A stretch of 33,239 nt of DNA from assembly GCA_003134375.1 (NCBI GenBank), contig PLAY01000147.1, positions 1 to 33,239 on the forward strand, given 5' to 3'. Source of the stretch: Limisphaerales bacterium (lineage in GTDB: Bacteria > Verrucomicrobiota > Verrucomicrobiia > Limisphaerales > UBA11358). Under the pieces are notes generated by a model that saw only the letters and a list, made by a program, of their open reading frames with translations, did no database searches and was not told where the DNA came from. Shown here piece by piece: positions 27,534 to 33,072 of this stretch. How positions within the stretch are numbered: position 1 is the first letter of the stretch; every line of letters starts with the position of its first letter. A program made the position numbers and the translations under genes.

Positions 27534-27609
27534 TTTATCAGATGTTTAATTGGGCGCAAAGGGCTTCTTTGAACTCTGCCGGTGATGTCGGGGGGTGAGG
27601 TGTATCGTC

Positions 27610-27903
27610 ATGCGCCGCCTCAATGTCATCGGACCCAATGTGGTCAGGCTCCGCCACCAGCGGAATTGGACGCAGGAGAAACTGGCCACCAAACTCCAGT
27701 TGCTGGGTTGTGACATCACCCCGCAGGTTGTCGCCAACATTGAGACGGGGCGTTGCGTTGCGACGGACACCCACATCCGTTTCCTGGTGAAGGTATTCCG
27801 CATCCATGTGGCCGATTTGTTCCCGCCGGAATGGCGCGATGGAAGGACGAATACCGGTCAAGCGGCGTCACCCTCAACCAAAAAGTCGCAGGCTGGCGTG
27901 TAG
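27610..27903 (+). CDS. XRE-family HTH regulator
   Basis: From the ATG at 27610 (MRRLNVIGPNVVRLRHQRNW) the protein has 97 residues; a GTG at 27595 is in frame but less likely. The HTH is VVRLRHQRNWTQEKLATKLQL, then ITPQVVANIETGRCVATDTHIRFLVKVFRIHVADLFP, ending in a polar tail. The domain is a relative of the one encoded at 14546 (VIGPNV/VVGPQV start, DLFPPE/QLYPEE end), but it lacks the KRHRGKKLKPK tail. It lies at the head of the unit with the methylase-helicase, nine bases before it, so it may regulate that gene and itself. Its TAG stop overlaps the ribosome binding site of the next gene. Confidence 0.85.
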   Translation: MRRLNVIGPNVVRLRHQRNWTQEKLATKLQLLGCDITPQVVANIETGRCVATDTHIRFLVKVFRIHVADLFPPEWRDGRTNTGQAASPSTKKSQAGV

Positions 27904-27907
27904 GAGG
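27902..27907 (+). promoter_or_regulatory. Strong ribosome binding site before the ATG at 27913
   Basis: AGGAGG lies five bases before the ATG at 27913. It decides the start of the long methylase-helicase frame upstream of the overlap with the TnpV-like gene, and makes use of this ATG likely. Confidence 0.8.
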
Positions 27908-27912
27908 TTCCC

Positions 27913-30900
27913 ATGCCGGTCCGCCGTCGCGATTTCAATGTTGACGACCAGCTTGACCTTTTTTCAAATCAAAGGCTGGCGCATGAAACCCTTGACCCAA
28001 TACGGACGAATGGCCGAGAAACACTGGCGCGAACACCGTCCCCAAATGGTGCGCGACCTGGAGGCGAAAGGACAGTTACACCAGATGCTGCTGGAGGCCG
28101 AGGAGAAGACGAAGGACGAAATGATCGAACTGACGCAACAGTTCGGAAAACAGGGGCTGACGCCGCAGCAGGCGCACGACCGCGCTTGGGAAATGGTGCG
28201 GGAGAACTACATCCTGCTCCCACCAGAGACTTAGCCGTCGGCCATCAAGCGAACGGCAGCGATTCACCCAGGAATCTTGACAACTACCGCATCACCGATG
28301 CCGACCGGCTGGGTGAAGGCGGTCTCAAACAGAAGTTCCAGCAAAACATCAAGGCGGTTGAAATCCTGCGGGCGTTGGATGCCGAGGATCGTCCGGCTGC
28401 ACCGGATGAAAAGGCCTTGCTGGTCAAATACGTCGGCTGGGGTGCGATGCCCCAAGTGTTTGACGTGGACAGCGCGAACTGGCGCAAGGAACAAATCCAG
28501 CTTTCCGAAATCCTGTCCGACGAGGAACACCGGTCCGCCCGCGCCACCACCCTCAATGCCCATTACACCGCGCCTGTCGTCATCCATGCCATGTATCAGG
28601 CCGCGCAGCGGTTCGGTTTCCAAGGCGGCGACATTCTGGAACCGGCCTGCGGCATCGGCCATTTCATCGGCCTGATGCCGGAGGAGATGCTGCGGCGTTC
28701 GGCGATCACCGGCATTGAAATTGATCCGCTGACGGTGCGCATCGCCAGGGCGTTGTATCCAGGTGCCGACATCCGCGAGCAGCCCTTTGAAAAGTCAAAA
28801 CTCACGGACGAATCTTTTGATCTGGCCGTCTCCAATGTGCCGTTCGGCGATTACACCGTTCACGACCCGCGTTGGAACGAATACAAGTTTCCGATTCACG
28901 ATTATTTCTTTGCCGCCGCGCTGGACAAGGTGCGGCCGGGCGGGCTGCTCATGCTTGTCACGTCGCGCCACACGCTGGATAAATTGGATTCTACCTTGCG
29001 GGGAATGCTTTCCGAGAAAGCCGAGTTCCTGGGTGCCGTCCGTTTGCCCAACACGGCGTTCAAGAAAAATGCCGGCACGGAAGTGACCACCGACATCGTG
29101 ATGCTGCGCAAACTGCGCTCCGGTGAACCGTCACGCGGCCCGGCATGGAAAGCGACGGTGGATTTTACCAACGACCATCAGGAAAAGTTTTCCATCAACG
29201 AATACTTCGCCACCCATCCTGAAATGATGCTCGGACAGATGCGGCTCGCACGAGGAATGTATCGGGACGGCGAACCGGTGCTGGCGCCGGACGACCGGGA
29301 ATTGGGCGAAGCGCTGGCACAGGCGGTTGCCCGGCTCCCCCAAAACATTTACGAACTCCAAACCCAATCAGCCGACGAAAAAACTTTCGATCCGGCGATT
29401 CCCGCGCCGGATTACATCAAACCCAATGCCTATTGCATCCATGAGGATGGACGGCTCTGCATTCACGAAGACGGCGTTCTCCGGCCACTGGATGACATGC
29501 CGATGGAAACCCGCTCGCGGATTCGTCGGCTGATTGAAGTGCGGGACGCGGTGCGGGATTGTATGCGCTCGCAACTCGACGGCAGCGGCGAGCAACCGGT
29601 TGTCGAGGCGCGTGAACAGCTAAACTTCGCCTACGACCGTTTTGTTTCCCGTTTCGGCCCGGTCAACGCCCCGGCCAATCAACGGGCGTTTCATGGCGAC
29701 CCGGATTTGCCGCTGTTGCTCTCGCTGGAACAATATGACGACGAAACCAGGGTTGCAGTCAAAGCCGCCATTTTTCGCGAGCGCACCATCCATCACAAAC
29801 AGCCAGTTCAATCGGTTGAATCACCGAAAGAGGCGTTGTTGGTTTCGCTGAATGAAAAGGGCCGGGTGGATTTGGAACACATGGCCGGATTGCTCGGCAA
29901 ACCTGTCGGGGAGTTTCTGCCGGATTTGCGGGGAATGATTTTCCTCAACCCGCAGAGCAAACAATGGGAAACCGAAGACCAGTATCTCTCCGGCAATGTC
30001 TGCGAAAAGTTGGTTGCAGCGGACACGGCCAGTGTTTCCGATGTCCGTTTCCATGAAAATGTCGAGGCGTTGAAATCGGTGCAGCCGCAGGATTTGCCCG
30101 CCACCGAGATTGACGTGCGCCTTGGCGCATCCTGGCTGCCGCCGTCGGACGTGCAGGATTACGTCCACGGATTGCTCGGCGTTCCGTCGGGTGTTGAGGT
30201 CGGTCACATCCATGCCCTTGGCTCGTGGCACCTCACCGCCAATTGGGAGGCGAAAGGGGCGACCGCAAACACAACCGATTGGGGAACCAACCGTTATACC
30301 GCCCTCGAACTCATTGAGGAAACACTGAACCTCAAGACGCCCACCGTTTATGATTACGTGGACAAGAAGCCTGTCGTCAACGCGCAGGCCACCGAAGCCG
30401 CCCGCGAAAAACAGGAGCGAATCAAGGAAAGGTTCAAGGAATGGATCTGGTCGGATGATTCAAGGAGAGAGCGGCTTTGCCGCCTCTACAATGACACGTT
30501 CAATCACAGCAGAGTCCGCACCTTCAACGGCGAACACCTGACGCTTCCGGGAGCCAGTGCGGCCGTTCAACTTCACAATCACCAGAAGTCGGGTGTTTGG
30601 CGTGTATTGCAAACGCCCAATACGCTGCTCGGCCATGTCGTCGGCGCGGGAAAAACCTACACGATGGTTGCTTCGGCGATGGAATTGAAGCGGCTGGGAC
30701 TGGCGCGCAAACCCATGTTCACCGTTCCCAACCACATGCTGGGCCAGTTCTCGACCGAACTGCTCATGTTATATCCGGGCGCAAACATCCTTGTCGCGGG
30801 CAAGGAGGACTTCGAGGCGCAGAACCGCAGGAAATTGTTCAGCCGCATCGCCACCGGCAATTGGGATGCCGTCATTGTCACGCACTCCGGCTTCGAGCGC

Positions 30901-33072
30901 ATTCCGTTGTCACATGAGACCCAGGTTCGATTCTTCAAGGAGCAATTGGACGAACTGGAGGAGATCCAACGCCAGCACGCCGACAGTTCCAATCGCAGGC
31001 TCGTCAAGGAACTTGAGAAAGCCAAAAAACGGCTCGAAGCCCGGTTGGAGGCCCTGGCTGCCGAACACAAGAAGGACAACACGCTGACTTTCGAGGAACT
31101 CGGCGTGGACCGGCTGTTCGTGGACGAGGCGCACTACTTCAAAAATCTTTTCTACGTTTCAAAAATGACCCGCATCGCTGGTCTGCCGCAGACGGCGAGC
31201 GAACGGGCCTTCGATATGTATCTGAAAGTGCGTCATGTTCAATCTGTGAACGGCGGTGGGGGAGTGGTCTTTGCCACTGGCACACCCATCGCTAACAGCA
31301 TGGCCGAGATGTTCACCATGCAGCGTTACCTGCAACCGGACGACTTGAAGAAGCACAACCTGCATCACTTCGACGGTTGGGCGGCCACCTTCGGCGAGCC
31401 GGTGACGGCGATGGAGCTTTCACCGGATGGTGCGGGCTACCGGCTCAACACGCGCTTCGCACGGTTCATCAACGTGCCGGAACTGATGCAAATTTTCCGG
31501 CAAACGGCAGACGTGCAGACCGCGCAGATGCTCAATTTGCCGCGCCCAAAACTGGAAGGTGAAAAGCCCGCCATCCGCAATGCGCCGGCATCGGCTGAGT
31601 TGAAAGAATTTGTCGAGGGACTCGCCAGGCGCGCCGAGGCGCTGAAACGCGGGCGCATTGATCCTCGCGAGGATAATATGCTCAAAATCACCACCGAAGG
31701 GCGCAAGGCCGCGCTGGATCTGCGCCTGATGAAACCCGGCCTGCCGGACGACCCGCAGAGCAAGGTCAATCTGGCGGTGGAAAACATTCATCGCATTTGG
31801 GAGGCGACCAGGGAAGACCGTTTGGCGCAGCTTGTTTTCTGCGATTTGTCCACGCCGCAAGACCGTGGCTTTTCCGTTTATCGGGACATGGCGGACAAAT
31901 TGAAACACCTTGGCATCCCTGAAGGGGAAATCGCCTTCATTCAGGATTACGACGCGGACAACGCCAAGCTGGCGTTATTCCGTTCCGTCCGCGCGGGCAA
32001 GGTCCGTGTCCTTTTTGGCAGCACACAGAAAATGGGTTCTGGTACGAACGTCCAAGAGCGGTTGGTTGCCCTGCATCATCTGGATGCTCCGTGGCGACCC
32101 GCTGATGTGGAACAGCGTGAAGGACGAATTCTGCGGCAGGGCAACAAGAATTCCAGCGTGCAGATTTATCGTTACGTCACGGAAGGCTCGTTCGATGCCT
32201 ACATGTGGCAGACGCTGGAGACGAAGGCCAAGTTCATCGCCCAGGTGATGACCGGCGATATGACCGTGCGCCGGCTTGAAGACATGGATTCCGCCGCGTT
32301 GACCTATGCCGAGGTCAAAGCCATCGCTTCCGGCAATCCGCTGGTCATCGAAAAGGCCAAGGTTGATGCCGAGTTGATCCGGCTCACCCGGCTGCGCTCC
32401 GCCCATGCAGAGGAGCAGTATCGCATCCGCAGCAGTCTGCGCCATTCACACGAGGAGGTGGAGACCTGGACGGAACGGCTGGCGAATTTGCGCGAGGATT
32501 TGACACTGCGGCAGGACACTTCCGGCGACCAATTCCGCATCGAACTGGACAAGCAGGCTCTGGACAATCGCGGCATCGCCGGGGAATTGATGTTGCGGCG
32601 GGCGGAGAAAACCAAAAATCGTTTCGGCGAGGACATCCGCATCGGTCAGTTCGCCGGGTTTGAATTGTTCATCCGTTCCGGCTTCAACAACACCGCCGAA
32701 CTCATTCTGCGGGGCAAAAACAGTTACAGCACCCGCATCACCGACACGGCGCTGGGCACCATCCGTTCGCTTGAATCCGTGGTGCAGGGTTTTGAGGAAC
32801 GTGCCGTGCGGCTGGAAGCCGACATCCGCGATTCACGGAAGCGCGCGGTCGAACTGGAGGCCAAGGTTGGCGCACCCTTCGAGAAGGAGGACCGGTATCA
32901 CCACCTGGTCAAACGCCAGTCGGAAATTGAGGAACAGCTTGACCTAACCAAGAATCAGGCTCCCAACCAGCTTGAGGCTGTGGCTGACAACGAGAACGAC
33001 GAGAAAAACTCACAGCAGCAAACCCAGACAAAATCAAACCGTCAAACCCGAAAGACTGCGGTGTGCGTATGA
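27913..33072 (+). CDS. Adenine-methylase-like/SNF2-type helicase fusion of conjugative elements
   Basis: The 1719-residue protein has in order: MPVRRRDFNVDDQLDLF, a disordered Gly/Ala/Arg/Asp-rich linker (about 20-115, see the overlap with the gene at 27983), and an N6-adenine-methylase-like domain. SAM motif I is ILEPACGIGHFIG near 240, with NVPFGDY near 308 at the catalytic motif usually NPPY/F. A SNF2/DEAD-like helicase follows: Walker A VVGAGKTYTM near 909, DEAH in FVDEAHYFKN near 1070, and motif VI VEQREGRILRQGN near 1400. The C-terminus (from about 1480) is coiled coil with Arg/Glu. Such giant methylase-helicase proteins occur on plasmids and ICEs next to T4SS genes, with an unknown role, perhaps in protection or processing of transferred DNA. 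The replacement of the first Pro of NPPF by Val leaves methylation doubtful. Confidence 0.9.
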   Translation: MPVRRRDFNVDDQLDLFSNQRLAHETLDPIRTNGRETLARTPSPNGARPGGERTVTPDAAGGRGEDEGRNDRTDATVRKTGADAAAGARPRLGNGAGELHPAPTRDLAVGHQANGSDSPRNLDNYRITDADRLGEGGLKQKFQQNIKAVEILRALDAEDRPAAPDEKALLVKYVGWGAMPQVFDVDSANWRKEQIQLSEILSDEEHRSARATTLNAHYTAPVVIHAMYQAAQRFGFQGGDILEPACGIGHFIGLMPEEMLRRSAITGIEIDPLTVRIARALYPGADIREQPFEKSKLTDESFDLAVSNVPFGDYTVHDPRWNEYKFPIHDYFFAAALDKVRPGGLLMLVTSRHTLDKLDSTLRGMLSEKAEFLGAVRLPNTAFKKNAGTEVTTDIVMLRKLRSGEPSRGPAWKATVDFTNDHQEKFSINEYFATHPEMMLGQMRLARGMYRDGEPVLAPDDRELGEALAQAVARLPQNIYELQTQSADEKTFDPAIPAPDYIKPNAYCIHEDGRLCIHEDGVLRPLDDMPMETRSRIRRLIEVRDAVRDCMRSQLDGSGEQPVVEAREQLNFAYDRFVSRFGPVNAPANQRAFHGDPDLPLLLSLEQYDDETRVAVKAAIFRERTIHHKQPVQSVESPKEALLVSLNEKGRVDLEHMAGLLGKPVGEFLPDLRGMIFLNPQSKQWETEDQYLSGNVCEKLVAADTASVSDVRFHENVEALKSVQPQDLPATEIDVRLGASWLPPSDVQDYVHGLLGVPSGVEVGHIHALGSWHLTANWEAKGATANTTDWGTNRYTALELIEETLNLKTPTVYDYVDKKPVVNAQATEAAREKQERIKERFKEWIWSDDSRRERLCRLYNDTFNHSRVRTFNGEHLTLPGASAAVQLHNHQKSGVWRVLQTPNTLLGHVVGAGKTYTMVASAMELKRLGLARKPMFTVPNHMLGQFSTELLMLYPGANILVAGKEDFEAQNRRKLFSRIATGNWDAVIVTHSGFERIPLSHETQVRFFKEQLDELEEIQRQHADSSNRRLVKELEKAKKRLEARLEALAAEHKKDNTLTFEELGVDRLFVDEAHYFKNLFYVSKMTRIAGLPQTASERAFDMYLKVRHVQSVNGGGGVVFATGTPIANSMAEMFTMQRYLQPDDLKKHNLHHFDGWAATFGEPVTAMELSPDGAGYRLNTRFARFINVPELMQIFRQTADVQTAQMLNLPRPKLEGEKPAIRNAPASAELKEFVEGLARRAEALKRGRIDPREDNMLKITTEGRKAALDLRLMKPGLPDDPQSKVNLAVENIHRIWEATREDRLAQLVFCDLSTPQDRGFSVYRDMADKLKHLGIPEGEIAFIQDYDADNAKLALFRSVRAGKVRVLFGSTQKMGSGTNVQERLVALHHLDAPWRPADVEQREGRILRQGNKNSSVQIYRYVTEGSFDAYMWQTLETKAKFIAQVMTGDMTVRRLEDMDSAALTYAEVKAIASGNPLVIEKAKVDAELIRLTRLRSAHAEEQYRIRSSLRHSHEEVETWTERLANLREDLTLRQDTSGDQFRIELDKQALDNRGIAGELMLRRAEKTKNRFGEDIRIGQFAGFELFIRSGFNNTAELILRGKNSYSTRITDTALGTIRSLESVVQGFEERAVRLEADIRDSRKRAVELEAKVGAPFEKEDRYHHLVKRQSEIEEQLDLTKNQAPNQLEAVADNENDEKNSQQQTQTKSNRQTRKTAVCV
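27983..28234 (+). CDS. TnpV-like small protein nested out of frame in the methylase-helicase gene
   Basis: From the ATG at 27983 (MKPLTQYGRMAEKHWREHRP) the 83-residue protein runs to the TAG at 28232-28234. It has the layout of TnpV-like proteins: a GRM-x-x-x-H/Y-W/L-x-EHRP start, then a helix GQLHQMLLEAEEKTKDEMIEL and a C-terminal helix ending ENYILLPPET, as in small proteins near mobile-element genes. AAAGG lies about seven bases upstream. The whole gene is within the first 320 bases of the methylase-helicase, in the next phase. Texture, length and the conserved ending make it a real gene, more convincing than the low-complexity linker encoded in the other phase. Function is unknown. It may be coupled to the large gene by the shared sequence. 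Confidence 0.8.
   Translation: MKPLTQYGRMAEKHWREHRPQMVRDLEAKGQLHQMLLEAEEKTKDEMIELTQQFGKQGLTPQQAHDRAWEMVRENYILLPPET

Follow-up and report, generated by a model that had tools for sequence, protein, structure and literature searches.

The window, as the whole stretch of 33,239 nucleotides under study is called here, contains two genes that share the same DNA. A small gene of the TnpV family lies wholly within the gene of a giant DarB-like protein, with a start offset of 70 nt that places it in the +1 phase. The features of the locus are the following.

27595..27903, + strand: upstream helix-turn-helix (HTH) gene, 102 aa, immediately ahead of the giant gene (PF01381 HTH_3, 24.7 bits)
27902..27907, + strand: AGGAGG, Shine-Dalgarno of the giant gene (read from the sequence)
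27913..33072, + strand: giant DarB-like polyvalent protein, 1719 aa (phrog_10089, and Pfam methyltransferase and helicase matches)
27949..27963, + strand: QLDLF motif in the giant frame, residues 13-17 (motif in homologous loci; consensus from PMC11139829)
27971..27975, + strand: AAAGG, internal Shine-Dalgarno-like site of the nested gene (sequence and viral counterparts)
27983..28234, + strand: nested TnpV-family gene, 83 aa, from ATG 27983 to TAG 28234 (PF14198, purifying selection, AlphaFold2)
27985..28236, + strand: overlapped part of the giant frame, disordered linker, residues ~25-108, rich in G/A/R/D/E/T (pLDDT, stop-free homologues, composition)
28276..28452 (end approximate), + strand: LPD36-like N-terminal segment of the methylase-helicase dyad (conserved alignment)
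28834..28845, + strand: NVPF, residues 308-311, at the place of the methyltransferase (MTase) catalytic motif NPP(Y/F) (alignment)

The initial annotation had described a 252-base overlap of two plus-strand frames, and both open reading frames (ORFs) are indeed found at these coordinates. The AGGAGG that it had noticed before ATG 27913 is present 5 nt ahead of this codon, and overlaps the stop codon with which the preceding HTH gene ends; AAAGG is located 7 nt ahead of the TnpV ATG. From its own start to the end of TnpV, the giant frame contains neither ATG nor GTG, as previously reported, and its sole TTG, previously placed near 28179, is in fact located at 28186-28188. The conserved part of the giant, expected near 28270, begins near 28276 (NYRITDADRLG).

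The giant comprises, in this order, an N-terminal region with a clamp motif and a linker, an LPD36-like segment, an adenine-MTase-like domain and a SWI2/SNF2-type helicase. It matches phrog_10089 (DarB-like antirestriction) with 1783 bits over residues 41-1714, and the GXG(G/A/S) motif of its LPD36-like segment is found by alignment as GEGG at residues 134-137 (LPD36 motif as defined in PMC5512222); this match and this motif identify the LPD36 - adenine MTase - SNF2 architecture. The protein thereby resembles the DarB-like polyvalent proteins of Iyer et al. 2017 (PMC5512222), with which it shares the domain order, the GXGU-type LPD36 motif and a match to phrog_10089 over nearly the whole length. 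The MTase motif reads NVPF instead of NPP(Y/F), and NVPF is likewise present in P1 DarB. This archetype, however, has neither the N-terminal linker nor a nested TnpV. The context is that of a mobile element, since a TrbI-type conjugation gene is present in the window (PF03743, E 1.5e-18).

The small protein, first described as TnpV-like and conserved-looking, scores 31.1 bits against PF14198 (gathering cut-off 27, E 2.5e-7) and is under strong purifying selection, as detailed below. TnpV is known from Tn4451-type mobilisable transposons and Bacillota elements, where it is described as a standalone transposon gene, whereas here it is found inside another gene. The AlphaFold2 model of TnpV consists of four helices with a pLDDT of 95.3. 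By contrast, when residues 1-460 of the giant were modelled, residues 1-116 remained below a pLDDT of 50 (~28 over most of this segment) and the fold began near residue 118. As the overlap spans residues ~25-108, one frame encodes a fold where the other encodes predicted disorder. A profile search of PDB sequences with TnpV returned nothing significant, and in a Foldseek comparison of the model with the PDB no entry reached E 0.001. With VIA, the best match, PG0816 (2apl; Z 6.5, 64 residues, 2.2 A), was rejected as too weak for a helical bundle. The comparison of predicted folds is thus uninformative on TnpV and provides no support for an Xis fold.

A second conserved element is located upstream of the overlap. 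Among the distinct Verrucomicrobiota loci, 48 of 49 carry QLxLF in the giant frame before TnpV, and the nearest start codon preceding this motif is ATG in 41 loci. The QLDLF of the giant matches the beta-clamp-binding consensus QL(S/D)LF (PMC11139829) and lies in a predicted flexible segment, so that it presents the sequence characteristics of a putative clamp binder; such a motif at the N-terminus suggests a possible way of tethering these antirestriction enzymes to replicating DNA. No published description of clamp-binding-like motifs in DarB-like giants was found. In phages, the giant ORF extends thousands of bases (>1400 codons) upstream of TnpV and includes recognised domains. Since QLxLF is located upstream of TnpV and the phage ORFs extend upstream as well, translation of the giant very probably passes through the overlap, which speaks against a start after 28234, the case initially named as refuting.

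Two relatives deprived of TnpV, G041 and G082, possess a similar motif (QLTLDF and QTELDFF, respectively) followed by an ordinary linker. Because both elements are kept in the absence of TnpV, this suggests that the motif and the linker are independent of TnpV, which occupies the linker. More generally, clamp-binding-like motifs are often observed before the enzyme in DarB-like giants with or without TnpV (QLDLF, QLTLDF, QMSLF, QFSFF, ELNLF).

The coupling of a small element protein with a giant enzyme, first seen at this single locus, proved to be far more widespread than the window. The source genome itself contains five TnpV copies and five methylase-helicase copies, paired 1:1; in all five, both frames are open over the overlap and the giant frame begins with QL(D/E)LF. 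The presence of five related loci in one genome (contigs C54, C66, C70, C107 and C158 of G000) suggests several co-resident conjugative elements. A scan of GTDB genomes produced 49 loci, nearly all from Verrucomicrobiota metagenome-assembled genomes, in nearly all of which the giant frame is open through TnpV. Nesting and phase are thus common to about 50 distinct Verrucomicrobiota loci. TnpV was matched in 22 of the 97 relatives' genomes searched.

The same arrangement can be observed in phages. TnpV copies were found in Erwinia phages PEp14, Pavtok and Stean, Klebsiella phages LASTA and SopranoGao, Agrobacterium phage Atu_ph08, Pseudomonas phage Itty13, Sinorhizobium phage PBC5, Vibrio phage VvAW1, Ochrobactrum phage POI1126 and Microcystis phage Mwe-JY07, all of them within DarB-like giants. 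Wherever the offset could be computed from the annotated start of the giant it was +1, with the sole exception of PBC5. In this phage (L090/L129), a local frame change, either real or due to a sequencing error, puts TnpV in frame with the upstream orf33, and probably explains both the match to the PHROG 938 'endolysin' and the only strong viral fold match (Q8W6J4). An IMG/VR scan added 63 loci, the +1 frame being free of stops across TnpV in 63/63 and part of an ORF of >1300 codons in all but one (L148). A divergent TnpV relative, nested in the +1 phase, was also detected in Bcep22-like Burkholderia phages by profile-profile comparison (probability 80%, E 1.3e-5). The proteobacterial phage members score below the PF14198 threshold or show no match to this family.

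In other elements, TnpV is nested in the +1 phase in two Actinomycetota plasmids, a Streptomyces phage-plasmid and a Microbacterium plasmid. In the latter (Microbacterium amylolyticum, L161:2078-2635), the SNF2-related gene is annotated from position 2602 only, yet its open frame reaches back across TnpV and far upstream; this late start is a case of annotation pipelines trimming real overlaps. On four human-gut scaffolds (L164, L165, L178 and L179), TnpV scores 87-143 bits with PF14198 and is nested in the +1 phase in ORFs of 2182-3180 codons; from their TnpV type, these elements probably belong to Bacillota. A tblastn search of plasmids gave no match at strict E-values, and relaxing E up to 10 produced mixed matches, among which a Fusobacterium 'ParB' was discarded as a false lead. 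The PF14198 profile gave no match in the controls, nor in the Pseudidiomarina and marine-biofilm genomes in which tblastn had found relatives. In two Pseudidiomarina chromosomes (L081, L082), a TnpV-like N-terminal stretch is part of a standalone gene instead of a DarB-like one, and is followed by hydrophobic, possibly membrane segments, as judged by eye. TnpV is not obligatory, since several relatives of the giant lack it (G041, G082, the gut element L177, the Streptococcus SNF2 and P1 DarB).

Selection on the two frames was examined by counting stops in the giant frame after shuffling the synonymous codons within each TnpV gene, a procedure that keeps the protein and the codon counts. In a first set of 52 representatives below 95% identity (44 of Verrucomicrobiota type, one marine-biofilm bacterium and seven phages), a single stop was observed (L014/L052) for 50.9 +- 5.4 expected, and none of 2000 shuffles was as low. 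In a viral set, also of 52 representatives and largely separate from the first although sharing some phage lineages with it, no stop was observed for 56.6 +- 5.8 expected. These sequences are phylogenetically related and the shuffle tests therefore overstate their independence. Standalone TnpV genes, which constitute a natural control, have the corresponding frame interrupted by 1-13 stops. In the first set, 253 stops (221 expected), or ~5 per gene, fall in the third frame of TnpV, so that +1 is the only compatible phase; the shared phase alone was consequently not counted as evidence of a single origin.

Among Verrucomicrobiota, differences at the TnpV codon positions 1, 2 and 3 amount to 0.226, 0.158 and 0.420. 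An OLGenie-like classification gave dNN 0.27, dSN 1.55 and dNS 0.17, i.e. purifying selection on TnpV (dNN/dSN 0.17) and no amino-acid-level constraint on the linker (dNN/dNS 1.6), in line with amino acid identities of 0.72 and 0.48, respectively. In the most diverged pairs, four-fold sites of TnpV, nearly all of which are amino-acid changing in the giant, differ at 0.535, compared with 0.589 in the methylase part. The linker is thus almost free in its sequence. Its composition nevertheless departs from that of the shuffles: acidic residues are enriched (z +7.5), hydrophobic and aromatic residues are depleted (z -8.1 and -5.5, respectively) and cysteine is absent, as expected for a linker kept disordered. 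On these sequence comparisons, both frames are under selection, TnpV in its sequence and the giant stretch to stay open and hydrophilic. The initial view of a linker constrained by the other phase is therefore kept with a refinement: its amino acid sequence is hardly conserved, and what is maintained is an open, hydrophilic and disordered state. The linker frame indeed stays open in the homologous loci, and the substitution analysis bears out the constraint proposed for the small frame. That both phases seem translated, as first suggested, is supported by the selection on both frames, from which translation itself is inferred. One coding sequence inside the other on the same strand, a different phase, recurrence in homologues and selection on both frames together characterize a nested gene pair.

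The start codon of TnpV is at the same place throughout its copies. A Shine-Dalgarno match of at least 4 nt precedes 54 of the 63 viral nested starts, compared with ~15% of all ATGs; AAGGAG or AAAGGAG is found ahead of TnpV in the four gut copies and in the Microbacterium copy, and AAGGAGG lies 9 nt before the nested ATG in Bcep22-like phages. About half of the Verrucomicrobiota TnpV starts are without a match of 4 nt. These data point with high confidence to a nested same-strand pair in the +1 phase, in which the giant would be produced from the upstream AUG and TnpV by internal initiation, the overlap being tolerated as only one product folds there. Ribosomes starting at AUG 27913 would produce the giant, with its clamp-binding-like motif, its disordered linker and its LPD36-MTase-SNF2 enzyme, and other ribosomes, entering the same mRNA at the internal Shine-Dalgarno/AUG at 27983, would produce a separate 83-aa four-helix TnpV. 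The overlap would be tolerable because the TnpV sequence is constrained while the linker, in the frame that carries no fold, needs only to be open, flexible and hydrophilic, and the nesting may in this way have been long preserved.

Other explanations were weighed against internal initiation. The giant could start after TnpV, at TTG 28186 or a later codon, the open frame upstream being due to chance and TnpV being an ordinary upstream neighbour. The NCBI start of the Microbacterium homologue, which nearly avoids the overlap, and a high G+C content, which makes open frames likelier, are in line with this proposal. It is nonetheless very improbable: codon usage as observed predicts about one stop for each gene while 1 and 0 were counted in the two sets of 52, QLxLF is conserved upstream of TnpV, the ORF of the phage giants reaches thousands of bases further upstream and includes conserved domains, and the Microbacterium frame is itself open far upstream. 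There is similarly very little probability that TnpV is made by programmed +1/-2 frameshifting, or joined in this way to the N-terminal segment or to the enzyme. A T6 run (CCTTTTTTC) does occur just ahead of TnpV in the window, and the upstream frame of phage PBC5 does run into TnpV. This run, however, is not conserved (homologues read, for example, AACTATTCAG, GACCTGTTC and GAACTTTTTGG), and no conserved slippery sequence was found in the TnpV homologues. Moreover, TnpV is preceded by a start codon and often by a Shine-Dalgarno, and in several other phages a stop closes the TnpV frame shortly before this start codon. PBC5 is the only phage to differ, as would follow from one local frame change or a sequencing error.

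It could finally be argued that the TnpV frame is an untranslated by-product of a constrained giant linker, in whose favour stands only the certainly larger size of the giant gene. The probability of this explanation is minimal, as substitutions concentrate at the third positions of TnpV (0.42 versus 0.23 and 0.16), the linker is less conserved than TnpV, the TnpV four-fold sites that change amino acids in the giant diverge nearly like those of the methylase, and TnpV has both a Pfam match and a fold predicted at pLDDT 95.

The role of TnpV is more conjectural. Loci that differ more in TnpV also differ more in the methylase region, with a strong correlation (Mantel r 0.85, 112 loci, 0/999 permutations), and TnpV and the helicase co-occur near 1:1 in relatives. 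On the basis of the nesting, of this correlation and of this co-occurrence, TnpV could with about even chances act in the same process as the giant, plausibly as its partner or regulator. Translated from the giant's message, it would most likely contribute to the establishment or protection of transferred element DNA. TnpV might instead be an excisionase-like DNA-binding protein that is unconnected with the giant apart from their common transcript. This function was postulated for the TnpV of Tn4451 from its similarity to lambda Xis (PMC3158075), and standalone TnpV genes are found beside a recombinase-like ORF (L176) and in a Pusillibacter plasmid. It is a genuine but rather doubtful option, given that the nesting recurs in several phyla and specifically within DarB-like genes, that co-occurrence with the helicase is near 1:1 and that divergence is correlated; the four-helix model, with no convincing PDB match, lends no support to an Xis fold without counting against it.

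Taking the association of TnpV with the giant one step further, TnpV and the DarB-like methylase-helicases may form an ancient, heritable nested pair, in which the nested protein would be a dedicated partner or regulator of the giant, its production being tied to that of the giant in a fixed manner by overlapping translation. This pair, in one phase, would span at least Verrucomicrobiota, Pseudomonadota phages, Actinomycetota and gut (probably Bacillota) elements. The linker upstream of the enzyme would repeatedly host small +1-phase genes, in most lineages TnpV but elsewhere unrelated genes. This broader reading is put forward tentatively, its chances being judged a little short of even.

In bacteria, long same-strand nested genes are usually isolated cases, removed or truncated by annotation pipelines. 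The present pair was found in far more than a hundred loci spread over several phyla; selection on both frames is cleanly evidenced, and the survival of the overlap has a simple structural explanation, a fold encoded on top of a disordered linker. The pair offers a tractable natural system for studying the persistence of overlapping genes, brings to light a small protein of laboratory phages that is largely unannotated, and provides a lead to the working partner of TnpV.

Nested overlapping gene pairs are already known, and it is the breadth and the partners that are unusual here. The Rz/Rz1 spanin genes of phage lambda (PMC5295617) show the same complete nesting on the same strand in the +1 frame, and the embedded mature Rz1 overlies a mutationally silent part of Rz (PMC5295617), which follows the same logic of a fold over a silent region. 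They differ by their unrelated proteins, their lysis function and a short outer gene, compared with 1700-5000 codons here. In Bacillus subtilis, comS inside srfAB (PMC12915044) is likewise a small regulatory gene in another frame of a giant enzyme gene, but it is a single bacterial example involving unrelated genes, whereas elements of several phyla share the present pair. In the related Burkholderia phage JC1, one giant of 4515 aa is annotated and was found in virions by mass spectrometry, and no nested gene is annotated (PMC9144972). Among the sources covered, PMC5512222, which describes the LPD36-MTase-SNF2 dyad, contains neither 'TnpV' nor 'overlap' in its text, and PMC3158075, on the TnpV of Tn4451, reports no such nesting. 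No published mention of the TnpV/DarB nesting was found in this incomplete coverage of the literature, and an earlier notice elsewhere is possible.

Several individual loci deserve a separate mention. At L190 (G021:C8), TnpV is present in tandem: one copy is nested in the remnant of a helicase gene with the giant frame still open, and the second is standalone, its equivalent giant frame having decayed (LPLDLF, then a stop). Pseudomonas phage 8P (L168:4693-4968) and Bacteroides phage BKO1-TP3 (L180:6654-6911) contain candidate +1-phase ORFs of ~90 and ~87 aa, respectively, which are unrelated to TnpV and occupy the same linker position before the methylase of DarB-like giants; no relatives of these two ORFs were found when searched for. 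Finally, in Pseudomonas phage vB_PaeM_USP_25 (L174:2615-2962), a nested +1 ORF of ~116 aa without a Pfam match displays a TnpV-like pattern (ETWRRDSPQMAARLEKQGLLDDL).
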